The notes under the pieces: model-generated
Databases searched by the model: none
Told to the model about the DNA's origin: nothing
What the model saw: the letters and a program-made list of their open reading frames with translations, nothing else
Part shown: one piece after another, positions 774 to 9,821 of the stretch
How the letters are laid out: each line of letters begins with the position of its first letter
Position numbering within the stretch: the stretch's first letter is position 1
From: Candidatus Fermentibacterales bacterium
GTDB lineage: Bacteria > Fermentibacterota > Fermentibacteria > Fermentibacterales > JAFGKQ01
Assembly: GCA_016928495.1 (NCBI GenBank)
Contig: JAFGKQ010000247.1
Coordinates: 1 to 9,821 of the forward strand
Length of the DNA stretch: 9,821 nucleotides
Direction: 5' to 3'
Program-made: the position numbers and the translations under genes

Positions 774-1277
774 CTACTCTATGACTACGAGCCTGTCTCC
801 GGTGTTGACCGAGTCGCCCGGCTTGACGTGGACATCGGCGATCGTCCCCGACTTGGGCGAGACCAGCTCGTTCTGCATCTTCATCGCTTCGAGAATGAGC
901 AGCTTCTGCCTGGCCTCTATCTCGTCGCCCTGCTTGACGAGGACATCCACGACCAGGCCGGGCATCGGCGCGGCCACGACAGCCTCACCCTTCTCGTGCA
1001 GCCCGGCAGATACGTACTCCCGCTCGTCTGCGACACGGAAGCTGAACAACTCGTCACGAACGGATACCTGGTAGCCGTCGGCGTACCTGCTCACCTCTAC
1101 GTTGTAGGAGATGTTGTCGACCAGTATGGAGAGATGGCTGGGGGAGATGCGGGCGATGCTGACCCTTCTCCTGGATTCGTCCAGGCTGACGTCGTAGATC
1201 TCTTCGAAGGGCTTCGCCTCGATCCTCTCGGCGTTTACCCTGAAGCTCCGCTCACCAGCCGATACGATATAGGCCAC
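774..1277 (-). CDS. Biotin carboxyl carrier protein of acyl-CoA carboxylase
   Basis: A 167-residue carrier subunit: it holds the biotin that shuttles carboxylate from the biotin carboxylase to the carboxyltransferase. The C-terminal biotinyl domain (about 95-167) shows APMPGLVVDV, then the EAMKMQNE biotinylation motif with target Lys at about 133, and closes with the usual GD-x-V-x-x-GD-x-L pattern. Residues 1-90 form a beta-rich N-terminal region like the small domain found before the biotinyl domain in propionyl-CoA-carboxylase-type carriers (family inference). I chose the GTG at 1277 because GGGAAGGG lies 6 nt upstream; an ATG at 1340 in the same frame would add 21 basic, poorly ordered residues and sit deep inside the preceding gene. 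The chosen start gives a 26-nt overlap with the biotin carboxylase gene, which suggests coupled translation. Confidence 0.93.
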   Translation of the reverse strand: MAYIVSAGERSFRVNAERIEAKPFEEIYDVSLDESRRRVSIARISPSHLSILVDNISYNVEVSRYADGYQVSVRDELFSFRVADEREYVSAGLHEKGEAVVAAPMPGLVVDVLVKQGDEIEARQKLLILEAMKMQNELVSPKSGTIADVHVKPGDSVNTGDRLVVIE

Positions 1278-2745
1278 CGTTCGCCCTTCCCGACATCCGC
1301 CACTGGCTGCCCGCGCCCTTTTCCCCGGGCTGGAGGTCAACCCTGCTCTCAGCCATTGCCACTATGGTCGCTGCCATTGCTGCGATCTCGATGTGCTCGC
1401 TCGTCTCGGTGTGCTCTATCTCCGAGACCATGCCCGTGTGATAGTCTCCCTCGAGGAAGGGTCCGAACCTGAGGGCCTTCTGGTGGAAGGGAATGGTCGT
1501 GAGGATGCCCCTGATCTTGTACTCCTTGAGGGCCCTGTCCATCCGGCTCAGGGCCTCCGCACGGTCTGCGCCCCAGGTTATCAGCTTCGCTACCAGCGGG
1601 TCGTAGTATATGGGAACCTCGTAGCCGACGCTGATGCCTGACTCGACCCTCACTCCCGGGCCGGCTGGCTCGATCAGCTCCTCTATGATGCCAGTTGATG
1701 GAAGGAAGGTCTGAGGGTCCTCTGCCGATATCCTGCATTCTATCGCTGCGCCGTTGATCCTGACCTGCTTCTGGGTCATGGGGAGCTTCTGGCCACCCGC
1801 AACGAGGATCTGCAGCTTCACGAGGTCCAGACCGGTTATCAGCTCCGTCACCGGATGCTCGACCTGTAGTCTTGCGTTGACCTCCAGGAAGTAGAAGTTC
1901 CTCTCGGAGTCGACCAGGAACTCGACAGTGCCGGCATTGACGTAGCCAGAGGCTCTTATGGCCCTGATTGCCGCCTCACCCATCTGCCTGCGCAGCTCGG
2001 GGGTCAGCGCGCAGCTCGGCGACTCCTCTATGAGCTTCTGGTAGCGCCTCTGGACCGAGCACTCCCTCTCGTTCAGATGGACGACGTTTCCGTGAGCGTC
2101 GGCTACGACCTGCACTTCTACGTGCCTGGGCCTGACGAGGTACTTCTCCAGGTAGACATCCGGGTTGTTGAAAGCAGAGACGGCCTCCGCGCGAGCCCTC
2201 TCCAGGGCTCCCGGAAGGTCCTGGTCGTTCTCTACGATACGGACCCCCTTGCCGCCACCTCCTCCGGAGGCTTTCAGCATCACCGGGTAACCGATGGCCT
2301 TCGCAACTGCGATGGCCTGCTCGCTGCTCTGGAGAGGCTCCTTTATCCCTGGCACGATCGGGATGCCAACGCTCTCGACGGTCTCCCTCGCTCTGGTCTT
2401 GTCTCCGACCAGGGCCATGGACTCGGAGCCCGGTCCGATGAAGATGATGCCCTGCTCCTCGCAGGCAGCCGGGAGCTCCGGGTTCTCGGCAAGAAAGCCG
2501 TAGCCGGGGTGGATGGCATCCGCACCGGACCTCCTGGCAACGTCCATGATCTTGTCGATGCGGAGGTAGCTCTCCCTCGAGGGTGCCGGCCCTATCTCGT
2601 ATGCCTCGTCGGCGTACCTCACATGCTTGGCGGCCCGGTCGACCTCGGAGTAGACGGCAACGGAGGTGATGTCCAGCTCCCTGCAGGCCCTCATCACCCT
2701 TACGGCGATCTCGCCCCTGTTCGCGACCAGGATCTTGGAGATCAT
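1252..2745 (-). CDS. accC: Biotin carboxylase subunit of acyl-CoA carboxylase
   Basis: ATP-grasp enzyme of 497 residues that carboxylates biotin on the carrier using bicarbonate and ATP. The order is complete: N-terminal domain opening ILVANRGEIAVRV (5-17), the HPGYGFLAEN block (79-88), the ATP-grasp glycine loop KASGGGGGKG (158-167), His208 in RPRHVE, ECSVQRR (228-234), FLEVNARLQVEHPVTE (286-301) with Glu288, Asn290, Arg292 and Glu296 at the E. coli AccC numbers, and Arg338 in ECRIS. All expected active-site residues are present. It is about 45 residues longer than E. coli AccC; the tail (about 453-497) has an Ala-rich helix followed by WRMSGR, a pattern I associate with larger acyl-CoA/oxaloacetate carboxylase families. 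The ATG at 2745 comes 3 nt after the carboxyltransferase stop and lacks a strong ribosome site, so it is probably translated by coupling. The symbol denotes the subunit type; the final acyl-CoA substrate is set by the carboxyltransferase. Confidence 0.96.
   Translation of the reverse strand: MISKILVANRGEIAVRVMRACRELDITSVAVYSEVDRAAKHVRYADEAYEIGPAPSRESYLRIDKIMDVARRSGADAIHPGYGFLAENPELPAACEEQGIIFIGPGSESMALVGDKTRARETVESVGIPIVPGIKEPLQSSEQAIAVAKAIGYPVMLKASGGGGGKGVRIVENDQDLPGALERARAEAVSAFNNPDVYLEKYLVRPRHVEVQVVADAHGNVVHLNERECSVQRRYQKLIEESPSCALTPELRRQMGEAAIRAIRASGYVNAGTVEFLVDSERNFYFLEVNARLQVEHPVTELITGLDLVKLQILVAGGQKLPMTQKQVRINGAAIECRISAEDPQTFLPSTGIIEELIEPAGPGVRVESGISVGYEVPIYYDPLVAKLITWGADRAEALSRMDRALKEYKIRGILTTIPFHQKALRFGPFLEGDYHTGMVSEIEHTETSEHIEIAAMAATIVAMAESRVDLQPGEKGAGSQWRMSGRANGGLYRIGW
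1284..1291 (-). promoter_or_regulatory. Ribosome binding site deciding the GTG start of the biotin carrier
   Basis: GGGAAGGG lies inside the 3' end of the biotin carboxylase gene, 6 nt before GTG 1277. It supports the GTG start over the in-frame ATG at 1340. Confidence 0.6.
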
Positions 2746-2748
2746 GGC

Positions 2749-4281
2749 CTAGAGGGGAAGGTTCCCATGCTTCTTGGGTGGGTTGCCGTCACGCTTCGAC
2801 TCGAGCGATCTAAGCGCGCTGATGAGCTTCGGCCTGGTCTCGTGGGGCTTGATCACCTCGTCTATGTAGCCCCGGTTGGCGGCTATGTAGGGATTGTTGA
2901 ACTTCTCGTTGTACTCGTCCACGAGGAGCTGGCGCCTCGCGGCAGGGTCCTCGTCGGAGGCGATGTCCCGTCTGAAGAGGATCTTGACGGCGCCCTCGGC
3001 TCCCATGACGGCTATCTGAGCGGTCGGCCAGGCGAAGTTCAGGTCGCACCTTATGTGTTTGGAGTTCATTGCTATGTAGGCGCCGCCATAGGCCTTCCTG
3101 GTGATTACCGTAAGCCTTGGCACGGTAGCCTCGCAGAAGGCGTAGAGCATCTTGGCGCCTTCCTTGATCACGCCCGAATGCTCCTGGCTGACTCCTGGGA
3201 GGAAGCCAGGCGCGTCCTCGAACACCACCAGCGGGATGTTGAAGCAGTCGCAGAAGCGGATGAAGCGCGCCCCCTTGACTGAGGTGAGGGTGTCGAGCAC
3301 TCCCGCGAGATGGTTTGGCTGGTTGGCTATGAGGCCCACCGGCCTTCCACCGAGCCTCGCGAAGCCCACTATGAGGCTGGGAGCGTACTCCCGATGCACC
3401 TCGAATATCCTGCCATCGTCCACGACCGCCCGGAGAACCTCCATCATGTCGTAGGGCTTCGAGGGATCGGGCGGGACCACGGAGTCCAGGGAGTCCTCCA
3501 TGCGGTCTGCCGGATCGCTGCTCTCGATGAGTGGAGGGTCTTCCATGTTGTTCTGCGGAAGGTAGGTGAGCAGCTCTCTTATCATCGAGAGACACTGCTC
3601 CTCCGACTCCGTGGCGAAGTGGGCCACCCCGCTGCGGGAGTTGTGGACCATGGCGCCGCCCAGCTCCTCGAAGGTCACCTCTTCGTGGGTTACCTCGCGG
3701 ATGACGTCCGGGCCCGTCAGGAACATGTAGCTGGATTGCTTCACCATGAACACGAAGTCCGTCAGGGCGGGGGAGTAAACCGCGCCTCCGGCGCAGGGGC
3801 CCATCACGGCCGAGATCTGCGGGATGACGCCCGAAGCCAGCACGTTCCTGAGGAAGACGTCGCCGTAGCCGGCAAGGGAGTCGACTCCCTCCTGTATCCT
3901 CGCGCCGCCAGAGTCCTTCAGTCCGATCACGGGTGCGCCATTGCGCAGGGCCAGGTCCTGGATCCTGCCTATCTTCTCGGCGTATGCCTGGGACAGCGAG
4001 CCGCCGAAGACCGTGAAATCCTCGGCAATGACGTAGACCAGCCTTCCGTGGATGTAGCCGTAGCCCGTCACTACTCCGTCACCCAGGACCTTCTTCGTCT
4101 CCATGCCGAAGTCGTTGCATCTGTGAGTGACGAACATGCCGAGCTCGCAGAAGGAATCTGGATCCAGCAGCAGGTTCACCCGCTCGCGAGCCGTAAGCTT
4201 GCCGGACTCGTGGTGCTGCTCGATCTTCTTCGCGCCACCGCCTGCGAGAGCCTCCGCTCTCAGATCATCGATTCTCTTCAT
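2749..4281 (-). CDS. Acyl-CoA carboxylase carboxyltransferase subunit (PccB/MmdA family)
   Basis: A 510-residue carboxyltransferase of the crotonase-like, PccB/MmdA type that moves CO2 from biotin to an acyl-CoA, most likely propionyl-CoA or acetyl-CoA. Two tandem domains are visible. The N-terminal one has [12 protein letters not shown] (87-98), [11 protein letters not shown] (122-132) and the oxyanion-forming [13 protein letters not shown] (161-173). The C-terminal one has [16 protein letters not shown] (355-370), [10 protein letters not shown] (396-405) and [16 protein letters not shown]. The position after GGAY, which by my recollection corresponds to the specificity residue of Streptomyces PccB (Asp) and AccB (Ile), is Ile403 here. 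The start is ATG 4281, preceded by GGAAGAGGGCGG; an upstream ATG at 4317 would add 12 residues not usual for the family. Because biotin carboxylase and carrier genes follow directly, the complex should be an ATP-driven carboxylase, not a sodium-pumping decarboxylase; no membrane decarboxylase subunit is seen. Confidence 0.95.
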
Positions 4282-4322
4282 CCGCCCTCTTCCCGGTGCG
4301 TCCCCTGGGCACGGCAACCGTG

Positions 4323-6336: not shown

Positions 6337-7947
6337 ATGAAGACATCCCCTGGCTCCATCGAGCTTTCGGTAACCCTCGCCCTGGCCCTGACCGGGGCGG
6401 TCGCCGCCTCGTCGCCGCTCGACCGGCTGGCGCTGGCGCCTGCCGGGGAGGAGAGGGAGTCGAGAACGCTGGAGTGCATAGAGAGCTATGCGGACCTCGA
6501 GGACTTCCTTGAGGCAGTCTCGGCCTGGCGTCCTGCCGCGAACCCTTCCCTGGAACCGATGGTGCTCTACGAGGACAGCATCGAGTACATCGACGGCATC
6601 ACGAGGCACTTCTACTTCGTCCTTCCGGGCACCGGCTCCGACGGACCGCGCCCGCTGCTCGTCTACCTCCATGGAGGAGTCAGCACCGAGGAGCTCGCGA
6701 GCTACTCTGCCGACGAGGTGCTCGGCGATCACATCCTCATACCCCGGGTCCTCGAGGAAGGGATGCTGGTGGCACTGCCATGTGCTCAACTCGGAGCCGT
6801 GTGGTGGGACCAGGCAGGAGAGCAGGGAATAGTGGAGATCGTCCGCTACATGAAGGCGCACTTCGATGTGGATGACTCGAAGGTCTTCGTGGGTGGCTTC
6901 TCGGACGGGGCCTCGGGCAGCTTCGGCCTGGCCATGCTGCGTCCGACCCCGTTTGCCGGCTTCATCGCCCTGTCCGGGCACATGGGGGTCGCCTCCCTCG
7001 ACGGCGGAAGGGCGACATACGCGCGGTCGCTCGCCGGGCGGATGGTCTACGCTGCCAATACCGACCTCGATCGCCTGTATCCCGCGGAGCAGATGCTGCC
7101 GACCATGGCTCTTGCGGAATCGGCGGGAGCCAGGATCGTCTACAGGGCCCCGGAGGGCTGGGGTCATGACTGGGGCTACGTGCCCGGCCTGGAGGGCGAG
7201 ATCCTCGACTTCATGCTGCAGGTCGGGAGGGAGGACTATCCCTCGGTCGTCGACTGGCAGACCGGCGAGCCCGGAGGGCGCGACTGGCTCAGGGTGGATT
7301 CGATCATCCCGTGGCCCCTGCTGGGCGAAGACTTCGACCACAACATGGTCATGGCATCCGACAGGCTCACCTTCGGCTTCTTCCCGGACTGGGAGTCGGA
7401 TAGCGACGGAGTCGGAGTTGCCGGAGTGGTGGAAGAAGGGGACTATCCGTCCGTGAGGATGGGGATGCAGTCCGGCGATGTGATCACCGGCTTCCGCGGC
7501 CGGGCGATCCGGACGATGGAAGATCTCTACGCAGCGATGGAGGGCATGAGCCCCGGCGATGCCTTTGCCATGACGCTGGAGAGAGACGGCCGGGAGCTGG
7601 AAGTGTCCGACCACTTCAACCCCCCGTCCTACTACTGGCTGTTCGAAAGGACTGGACCGTCCGTATACGTTAAGGCAACAATCAACGATAATGTGGTAAA
7701 TATAGAGACTAACAGGCTTTGTGTTCTTACTCTTCACTTGTCACAAGAGATGCTGGAGCTGGATCAGCCTGTTGAGATAGTATGCAACGGCATTGGCATC
7801 TTCCACGGCCTGATCGGACAGGATCTCGAGACTGCTGTCCGTTGTTTCTCGGAGACTCTGGACAGGCAGCGTGTCTACGTGGCCTCGATGAGACTGGATC
7901 TCGAGGAGCTGCTGCTGGCACTTCTGGCTTCCTCAACGGATGCGTGA
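6337..7947 (+). CDS. Exported alpha/beta hydrolase with PDZ domain and extra C-terminal domain
   Basis: A 536-residue protein with an apparent signal peptide (1-24, AVAAS region as cleavage site). Residues about 85-300 are an alpha/beta hydrolase of the esterase / depolymerase-like group: LLVYLHGG (107-114) gives the oxyanion strand-turn, GGFSDGASGS (186-195) is the nucleophile elbow with Ser189 in G-x-S-x-G, Asp243 or Asp245 in the stretch ending RLYP is the likely acid, and His277 in GWGHDWGY the likely base. Residues about 357-426 read as a PDZ domain (MGMQSGDVITGFRGRAI followed by a helix). Residues about 440-525 are a separate domain with VEIVCNG and alternating hydrophobic strands, of a type I associate with the C-termini of exported esterase-like hydrolases. 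GGGGGAGG lies 8 nt before the ATG. Likely substrate is an ester or peptide bond outside the cytoplasm; it cannot be named. The coding DNA for the start of the last domain is unusually AT-rich. Confidence 0.85.
   Translation: MKTSPGSIELSVTLALALTGAVAASSPLDRLALAPAGEERESRTLECIESYADLEDFLEAVSAWRPAANPSLEPMVLYEDSIEYIDGITRHFYFVLPGTGSDGPRPLLVYLHGGVSTEELASYSADEVLGDHILIPRVLEEGMLVALPCAQLGAVWWDQAGEQGIVEIVRYMKAHFDVDDSKVFVGGFSDGASGSFGLAMLRPTPFAGFIALSGHMGVASLDGGRATYARSLAGRMVYAANTDLDRLYPAEQMLPTMALAESAGARIVYRAPEGWGHDWGYVPGLEGEILDFMLQVGREDYPSVVDWQTGEPGGRDWLRVDSIIPWPLLGEDFDHNMVMASDRLTFGFFPDWESDSDGVGVAGVVEEGDYPSVRMGMQSGDVITGFRGRAIRTMEDLYAAMEGMSPGDAFAMTLERDGRELEVSDHFNPPSYYWLFERTGPSVYVKATINDNVVNIETNRLCVLTLHLSQEMLELDQPVEIVCNGIGIFHGLIGQDLETAVRCFSETLDRQRVYVASMRLDLEELLLALLASSTDA
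7661..7800 (+). other. AT-rich patch inside the hydrolase gene
   Basis: Bases 7681-7740 contain 21 G or C in 60 (35 %), and 7661-7800 contain 60 in 140 (43 %), while the flanking gene is well above 60 % by eye. The reading frame stays open and codons shift to types rare elsewhere in the window (GTT, GTA, ACA, AAT, ACT, CTT, TTG, TCA). The patch encodes the first half of the C-terminal domain after the PDZ domain. Confidence 0.75.
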
Positions 7948-7986: not shown

Positions 7987-8433
7987 ATGGGAGAAGCTAT
8001 CGATTTCGAGCTGAGGGACCACCACAACGAGGTACTGGCCTTGAGCGGGGAGTCGAAGGGCAGAAAGGTGCTGCTCTCCTTCCATCCGTTGGCATGGACC
8101 CCGGTGTGCCGCAAACAGATGATGGATCTGGAGGCGTCCTTCGAAGAGCTGGAGTCACTCGGCGTTCTGGCGGTGGGGATAAGCGTGGATGCCTGGCCCT
8201 CGAAGCACGCCTGGGCAAGGGAGATGGGGACGAGGCGGCTGAGGCTCTTGTCGGATTTCTGGCCACATGGCGCGGTTGCCGGTAGCCTCGGGCTTTTCCG
8301 TGAGAGAGACGGGATCAGCGAGCGGGCGAACGTGCTCCTGGACGAGAGGCTTCGAGAGGTCTGGAGGAAGGTTTATCCCATAAGCGAGGCGCCCGACCTG
8401 CGGGAGGTCCTCGAGGCCATCAGGGGCCTCTGA
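7987..8433 (+). CDS. Peroxiredoxin (AhpC/TSA family, one cysteine)
   Basis: A 148-residue thioredoxin-fold peroxidase that reduces hydrogen peroxide or organic peroxides. The active-site loop reads SFHPLAWTPVCRKQM (31-45), giving the conserved Pro34, Thr38 and peroxidatic Cys41, and the supporting Arg is probably Arg113 in SERANVLLDE. The segment FWPHGAVAGSLGL (91-103) is typical of AhpE-like and related small peroxiredoxins. Cys41 is the only cysteine in the protein, so it should work as a 1-Cys enzyme that needs an outside thiol as reductant. No signal peptide is seen, so it is cytoplasmic, unlike its two neighbours. AAGGGAG lies 3 nt before the ATG. It starts 39 nt after the hydrolase stop and ends 18 nt before the next start, so the three genes probably share a transcript. 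Confidence 0.93.
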   Translation: MGEAIDFELRDHHNEVLALSGESKGRKVLLSFHPLAWTPVCRKQMMDLEASFEELESLGVLAVGISVDAWPSKHAWAREMGTRRLRLLSDFWPHGAVAGSLGLFRERDGISERANVLLDERLREVWRKVYPISEAPDLREVLEAIRGL

Positions 8434-8435
8434 GC

Positions 8436-8443
8436 GGGGGAGG
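8436..8443 (+). promoter_or_regulatory. Ribosome binding site for the TTG start of the C39-like peptidase gene
   Basis: GGGGGAGG lies 8 nt before TTG 8452, the same sequence and spacing as before the hydrolase ATG at 6337. The TGA of the peroxiredoxin at 8431-8433 is in the same frame, so the start must lie after it, and TTG is the first usable codon. Confidence 0.6.
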
Positions 8444-8451
8444 CGGGCGTC

Positions 8452-9821
8452 TTGCAGGCTGTCGGGGTCCTGGTCGTGCTGGCCGGCTTCGCTTCCGGTC
8501 CGGATCCGGCATGCATGACGACCGTTGCCGGCTTCCTGGACGGGGGAGCCCTGCTCACCTCCGGTACCGACCTCGGCCTCGCGCTGGTGCTTCCGGGGGC
8601 CGATCCCGTGTGGCTCTCGGAGATGCCGGGATCAGGCCGGAACTGCGTCACAGACGAGGAGAGCGGTCGCGTGATCTTCAAGGAGTGTGTTCCGGGCGAT
8701 CCTGCGTTGCAGCGGCTGGTGGGCTGGACGCTCGAGGGCGGGCGTGAGATCCTGATCGAGGCTCCGGTCCTGGCCGGCCCTTTCGAGGCAGGGTCCGGGT
8801 TCATCGCAGCGCTGGACGGCAGCCTCCTGAGGCTCGGCGCTTCCGCAGAGGTGCTCGACTCCTTCCGGGTGGAGGGGCTGTGCCCTTCGGTCTGCGAGGC
8901 GGGCGAGGTCATCTACTTCGTGGATGGCGCGGGCGATCTCCACTGCCTTGACGAGAGCCGGCCAGTTGGGGGTCATGGGACTGCTGCGTCGGTTTCGGCG
9001 TCCGAGTGCGGGTCCTGGGTGCTGGTCAGGAGAGTGGATGGGGCCTTCGACATTCTGGACTCCGCCGACGGCCGGCCTACCGTCGAGGCAAGACGGGGCC
9101 TGTTCCCCTGCTGGTCCCCCGATGGAGAGGTCCTCTACTGCGCTTCCGCCGCTGGCGGGGATGCAGAGCTGACAGGTCAGTTGATGGCGATGGACCCGCG
9201 GGCCGGACTCTCCAGAGAGATCCCGGTCGGGGCCGAGCTGCCGGCGAAGCCCCGGATGTCGGCCGACCTCGGTCTGTTGGTGACGGATGCCGGAACGGGC
9301 GCCCTTCTCGGAGGCGGTGACCTGCTCGACCCATGGAGAAGGCTGTTCGGCGAGCCCGTTCCCCGACACGGGCGCTGGCGCGCCAGCGACGATCCCCGGG
9401 CCGAGGTCGACGTGCCCTGGATGCACCAGAGGTGGGACACCCCCGACTGGTTCGACGGCTCCTGGTCCTGCGGGCCAACCTCCTGCCTGATGGCCGCCCA
9501 GTATTACGACAGGCTGACCCCGGACTCCATCTGGTGCAGCTCACCCTCTCCCGGCCACTGGAGCCGATGGGGCAACTACGTTCCCGAGCTCTTCACCTTT
9601 CTCGGCTACACCTACGACATCTGGGGCATCTCTCCCGGGGAGGTCTGGGTCCAGGGCGCCCACGGCTTCATCTGCCGCGAGCTGGGAGGCGCCTACTGGA
9701 GCTACATGACCGCATTCCTGTCCCAGTGCGGGCTCTACTCGGCCTGGGCAGGCACCGCCTGGTCCACGCTGACGGGCGAGCTGGACAGCGACTGGCCGGT
9801 GGTCTGCTCCAGCACGATCTA
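8452..9821 (+). CDS. Exported propeller-like protein with C39-type cysteine peptidase domain, C-terminus cut off by the window
   Basis: An open frame of 456 codons without a stop, running off the right edge. The N-terminus from TTG 8452 is a short hydrophobic segment (VGVLVVLAGFASG, 4-16), probably a signal peptide though it lacks a basic residue. Residues about 20-300 are beta-rich with TolB/PD40-like pieces such as CWSPDGEVLYCAS (220-232), so a propeller is likely. Residues about 319-456 are a C39-like peptidase domain: VPWMHQRWDTPDWFDG (321-336) with the oxyanion Gln326, then SWSCGPTSCLMAAQYY (337-352) with catalytic Cys340, and a Gly/Tyr/Trp-rich middle. The window stops near PVVCSSTI, just before the GH motif with the catalytic His would be expected. 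There are 15 cysteines in the visible part, many for a bacterial protein of this size. It follows the peroxiredoxin by 18 nt. Likely role is exported peptide cleavage or binding; the target is unknown. Confidence 0.85.
   Translation, partial: MQAVGVLVVLAGFASGPDPACMTTVAGFLDGGALLTSGTDLGLALVLPGADPVWLSEMPGSGRNCVTDEESGRVIFKECVPGDPALQRLVGWTLEGGREILIEAPVLAGPFEAGSGFIAALDGSLLRLGASAEVLDSFRVEGLCPSVCEAGEVIYFVDGAGDLHCLDESRPVGGHGTAASVSASECGSWVLVRRVDGAFDILDSADGRPTVEARRGLFPCWSPDGEVLYCASAAGGDAELTGQLMAMDPRAGLSREIPVGAELPAKPRMSADLGLLVTDAGTGALLGGGDLLDPWRRLFGEPVPRHGRWRASDDPRAEVDVPWMHQRWDTPDWFDGSWSCGPTSCLMAAQYYDRLTPDSIWCSSPSPGHWSRWGNYVPELFTFLGYTYDIWGISPGEVWVQGAHGFICRELGGAYWSYMTAFLSQCGLYSAWAGTAWSTLTGELDSDWPVVCSSTI

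Follow-up and report, generated by a model that had tools for sequence, protein, structure and literature searches.

Besides proteases, enzymes with the papain-like fold include amidases, transpeptidases and transglutaminases, and membership of the 'C39-like' family PF13529 (Peptidase_C39_2) alone is no proof of proteolysis. In family S9, which includes prolyl oligopeptidase and acylaminoacyl peptidase, an N-terminal seven-bladed propeller stands before a serine-type alpha/beta hydrolase. Type A cargo of the T9SS (TIGR04183/PF18962) combines a signal-like N-terminus, a catalytic domain and a C-terminal sorting domain. An older survey found the T9SS only in Bacteroidetes (PMC4793230), and a 2024 list of phyla with a possible T9SS does not name the Fermentibacteria phylum (PMC11285876). 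Among proteins with a CBM6-CBM35-CBM36_like_2 domain, a study on lectins of Bacteroides names golvesin and xanthan lyase as the characterised ones (PMC9166713).

Here, we describe a gene of a Fermentibacterales bacterium that apparently brings these familiar parts together in an undescribed arrangement; the open-licence literature yielded no paper that links C39-like peptidases to a propeller or to the T9SS. The gene lies at the end of the window, i.e., the whole stretch of 9,821 bp that was analysed. Its orthologues match the whole PF13529 profile and possess the Gln, Cys, His and Asn/Asp residues, but differ from other PF13529 proteins in the propeller in front and, within the order, in an extra invariant pair, Cys345/Cys408. 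They resemble T9SS type A cargo in all three parts and SprA and PorV are encoded in the genome, whereas the signal is without a basic n-region and the phylum is outside the PMC11285876 list. The likeness to the S9 enzymes, a works-like comparison only, lies in the N-terminal seven-bladed propeller before a hydrolase, but the catalytic domain here is C39-like and of the cysteine type. The orthologues also carry, above the cut-off, the domain of golvesin/xanthan-lyase-type proteins (PF25275; Bacteroides lectins Cbeg4 and Cbeg5), which is here joined to a peptidase, where those proteins have it in a lyase or as a lectin.

Gene frame, start and relatives

Because the window spans an entire contig (G000:C8) of a 2.3-Mb draft genome, its edge is an assembly end, and the gene is cut there at codon 456 with about the first 60% of it left. 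The features are as follows:

7987–8433: AhpC/TSA gene, upstream neighbour of the propeller-C39 gene, stopping at 8433
8436–8443, + strand: Shine-Dalgarno-like GGGGGAGG, 8 nt ahead of the TTG (sequence; orthologue upstream regions)
8452–9819, + strand: propeller-C39 gene, 456 codons, TTG start, 3' part lost at the contig end (sequence, orthologues)
8452–8514, + strand: hydrophobic N-terminus without Lys/Arg, presumably signal-peptide-like, codons 1–21
8515–9321, + strand: predicted seven-bladed beta-propeller, residues about 22–290 (AlphaFold2 model, VIA-align)
9403–9819, + strand: N-terminal part of Peptidase_C39_2 (PF13529), residues 318–456, the rest beyond the contig (Pfam match)
9427–9429, + strand: Gln326, putative oxyanion-hole residue (invariant in the alignment; role from papain-like peptidases)
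9469–9471, + strand: Cys340, putative catalytic nucleophile in WSCGPTS (22 of 22 sequences; kept in distant relatives)
9484–9486, + strand: Cys345, invariant in the order, may pair with Cys408 in a disulfide (alignment)
9673–9675, + strand: Cys408, invariant in the order, may pair with Cys345 in a disulfide (alignment)

A preliminary description of this DNA had claimed a TTG-started frame running to the window edge, and 8452–9819, in which DTPDWFDGSWSCGPTS is present, is indeed open for all its 456 codons. The openness itself is weak evidence because shuffled GC-rich windows give comparable open frames: in 100 base shuffles of the window (64% GC), the longest had a mean of 254 codons and a maximum of 496. 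That maximum would suit a chance product of high GC, a reading to which we give practically no credence and which homology rules out, since orthologues in many genomes are 41–50% identical across nearly the whole frame and the Pfam C39-like match likewise marks it as a real gene. The TTG start is supported by GGGGGAGG 8 nt upstream and by the orthologue starts, which coincide with that of the window gene and in three cases are also TTG. It had further been claimed that an ATG-only search demanding a stop codon would miss the gene; owing to the in-frame ATG at codon 22 (8515), such a search with open ends retains the gene, and what it drops is the signal peptide. With a complete orthologue as the query, the missing C39 end was found on no contig of the own genome. 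A match on C272 (845–1522; L024, a frame of about 654 aa) was rejected as that end, being a different protein of the same genome; what it has in common with the family is the Golvesin_C/T9SS tail region.

Homology searches gave matches in 29 of the 60 sampled genomes, i.e., in 28 of the 42 genomes of the order (the own genome included in both counts) and in one genome outside it. Counted from the best-supported, aligning start, complete relatives are 686–754 aa long and consist of a hydrophobic N-terminus, a propeller (~240–280 residues), PF13529 C39_2, PF25275 Golvesin_C and a T9SS sorting tail. In the window copy itself the catalytic His, the Asn/Asp, Golvesin_C and the tail would lie beyond the contig, and these parts are seen in the orthologues.

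Peptidase domain and propeller

The window copy scores 21.1 bits against PF13529 (profile positions 2–107 of 143), below the gathering cut-off of 24 bits because the frame stops within the C39 domain, and four complete orthologues score 38.5–42.6 bits, above the cut-off, with the whole profile covered. Cys340 and Gln326, the latter a putative oxyanion-hole residue by analogy, are invariant in the order, and GH(I/L) followed by ND is present in every orthologue long enough to reach that point. The same Gln, Cys, His and Asn/Asp are also kept in aligned relatives from other families. The preliminary description had recognised a C39-like peptidase, which is borne out by the Pfam matches of the orthologues and by their catalytic residues, including the GH and downstream Asp/Asn. 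None of the PDB sequences matched the C39 part, the weak matches being to T9SS tails and BamB propellers, and pLDDT was mostly below 50 for this part in the models of both the window protein and an orthologue.

The window peptidase belongs to PF13529 and not to the C39 proper of bacteriocin transporters. A bacteriocin-processing peptidase (MEROPS C39 proper) would come from a related superfamily with the same CGP motif, but the complete orthologues are without an ABC-transporter or membrane domain and have a signal, propeller, Golvesin_C and T9SS tail instead, a domain content that largely rules out this reading and leaves it very improbable.

The protein had also been described as cysteine-rich, and the count of 15 Cys in 456 aa (3.3%) is correct and high for the window, whose other proteins have 0.5–2.7%; orthologues have 1.2–3.3%. 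The importance of these cysteines is less well supported, since only Cys79, 340, 345 and 408 are invariant among the sequences covering them and the other 11 are not, and a cysteine-rich design was rejected because most are not conserved. Cys345 and Cys408 are kept in L063 and L064 from outside the order and absent in remoter relatives, and the alignment makes a disulfide between them plausible.

For residues 22–290, AlphaFold2 gave ten-residue mean pLDDT values of 69–94, except for 51 around residues 231–240. VIA-align matched the window model to Utp21 (Z 19.8, rmsd 3.6, 255 residues), tied with DDB2, WDR61 and others, all of which are seven-bladed WD40 propellers, and the model of an orthologue agreed (Z 18.7), with 27 strands from residue 28 to residue 279. 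The N-terminal half (residues about 17–290) is predicted from these models to be a seven-bladed WD40-type propeller. Of the TolB/PD40 propeller proposed earlier, the propeller stands, but the TolB/PD40 type is less well supported: the best structural matches are WD40, and a Pfam match to PD40 came up only in a distant relative (L064), with none for the window protein.

Between the window copy and its orthologues, mean identity is 71% for C39 and 28% for the propeller, and within the order it is 72% for C39, 62% for Golvesin_C and 34% for both the propeller and the tail. By these identities, the enzyme part appears to be held fixed while the propeller, as the candidate recognition part, drifts. 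The propeller could also be a steric gate admitting short peptides only, as in prolyl oligopeptidases, which would make the enzyme an oligopeptidase; acylaminoacyl peptidase, a Foldseek match of the propeller, has the same order of parts with the propeller before the catalytic domain. However, that match rests on the common propeller fold only, which is no information on function, and the fast divergence of the propeller fits a recognition part more; we consider such a gate quite unlikely.

Homologues with both halves occur inside and outside the order. Outside it, L063, L064, L065, L067, L069 and L070 have a propeller-like N-terminal region and then C39, followed in L063 and L064 by two Golvesin_C domains (Pfam), while for L065, L069 and L070 the alignment to the family profile takes in its Golvesin part; L066, L072 and L073 have C39 without a propeller in front. 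When the propeller regions alone were compared as profiles, the probability was 97.4% for L063/L064 (E 1.5e-11) and 88.7% for the L070 group (E 2.6e-6), with alignments spanning about 240–250 columns, and 0.9% for an unrelated propeller protein of the same window as a control. Because propellers of other families align along their length, the pairing of propeller and C39 is probably old, and inherited rather than re-invented.

Golvesin_C, sorting tail and T9SS genes

Complete orthologues match Golvesin_C (PF25275) with 42–52 bits (cut-off 31.6), and from the domain comparison in PMC9166713 we infer that this module binds carbohydrate. The TIGR04183 tail is present in three of four orthologues (34.2, 28.4 and 26.6 bits; cut-off 23), with no match in L005. 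The own genome (G000) encodes 52 TIGR04183 tails together with SprA (contig C152) and PorV (contig C208), both above the cut-off. A PorU-like sortase gene, which scores at most 290 bits against a cut-off of 420, adjoins PorV on C208, and GldL, a part of the T9SS motor, had no match in 8 genomes in a search that was run without a positive control. That the protein could sit at the surface, as the preliminary description proposed, is made more likely by the sorting tails of the orthologues together with the SprA and PorV genes of G000. No literature on Fermentibacteria with a T9SS was found, and the T9SS genes would extend this system to a phylum outside the 2024 list.

T9SS components and dozens of T9SS tails were also observed across the 42 sampled genomes of the order. 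Lys/Arg are absent from residues 2–10 in all 19 intact N-termini of the propeller-C39 family in the order (window, L004–L022). Most other T9SS cargo of the order, and also L063/L064, do have Lys/Arg in the N-terminal region, and an order-wide loss of the basic n-region in signals was rejected on this small sample.

Proposed role and neighbouring genes

We put the probability at about two in three that the gene of this fermenting anaerobe encodes a cysteine peptidase which is exported by the T9SS, tethered to carbohydrate and equipped with a propeller for recognition. The protein would be exported by Sec via its N-terminal signal and fold into a seven-bladed propeller and a C39-like papain-fold domain, with the Gln-Cys-His-Asn/Asp set that is intact in the family. 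The T9SS would carry it over the outer membrane and then release or anchor it; the propeller may choose which peptides or glycoproteins reach the peptidase beside it, or gate their entry, and Golvesin_C may keep the enzyme bound to polysaccharide, the outcome being digestion of external protein.

Alternatively, the target of the C39-like domain might be a bond in the cell wall or another bond that yields no nutrient (peptidoglycan stem peptide, amide hydrolysis, transpeptidation), and the protein would then be an enzyme that modifies surfaces and not one that digests protein for food. The range of reactions of the papain-like fold would allow this and Golvesin_C suggests a glycan target, but the export tail suggests work outside the outer membrane, away from the cell's own peptidoglycan, and no cell-wall-binding domain was found in the window protein or the complete orthologues. 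We regard this alternative as unlikely, though to be taken seriously. Relatives occur in 28 of the 42 sampled Fermentibacteria genomes, roughly two thirds, and also outside this group; as an exported peptidase, the family would give a starting point for understanding how these uncultured fermenters might live on protein from their surroundings. A bolder generalisation, which we hold to be a long shot, is that propeller-C39 proteins are old and widespread T9SS-exported cysteine oligopeptidases in which the propeller gates the papain-fold site, a cysteine counterpart of prolyl oligopeptidase, and that the T9SS of this phylum could work with no GldL motor of a recognisable kind.

No conserved neighbour genes pointing to a function were found. 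A conserved operon was rejected, as neither the AhpC/TSA nor the PDZ/hydrolase gene adjoins the orthologues examined, and an AhpC/TSA gene lies within a few kb only at L065, outside the order. A plasmid or viral origin of the contig was likewise rejected (no plasmid match, no viral relative). Elsewhere in the window, the gene at 6337–7947 (+ strand) encodes a protein that looks exported and joins a PDZ domain to a part weakly resembling an alpha/beta hydrolase (PHB-depolymerase-like). At 774–4317 (− strand), genes for biotin-lipoyl, biotin carboxylase and carboxyltransferase proteins follow one another, an arrangement of the kind found for acyl-CoA carboxylases or decarboxylase complexes.
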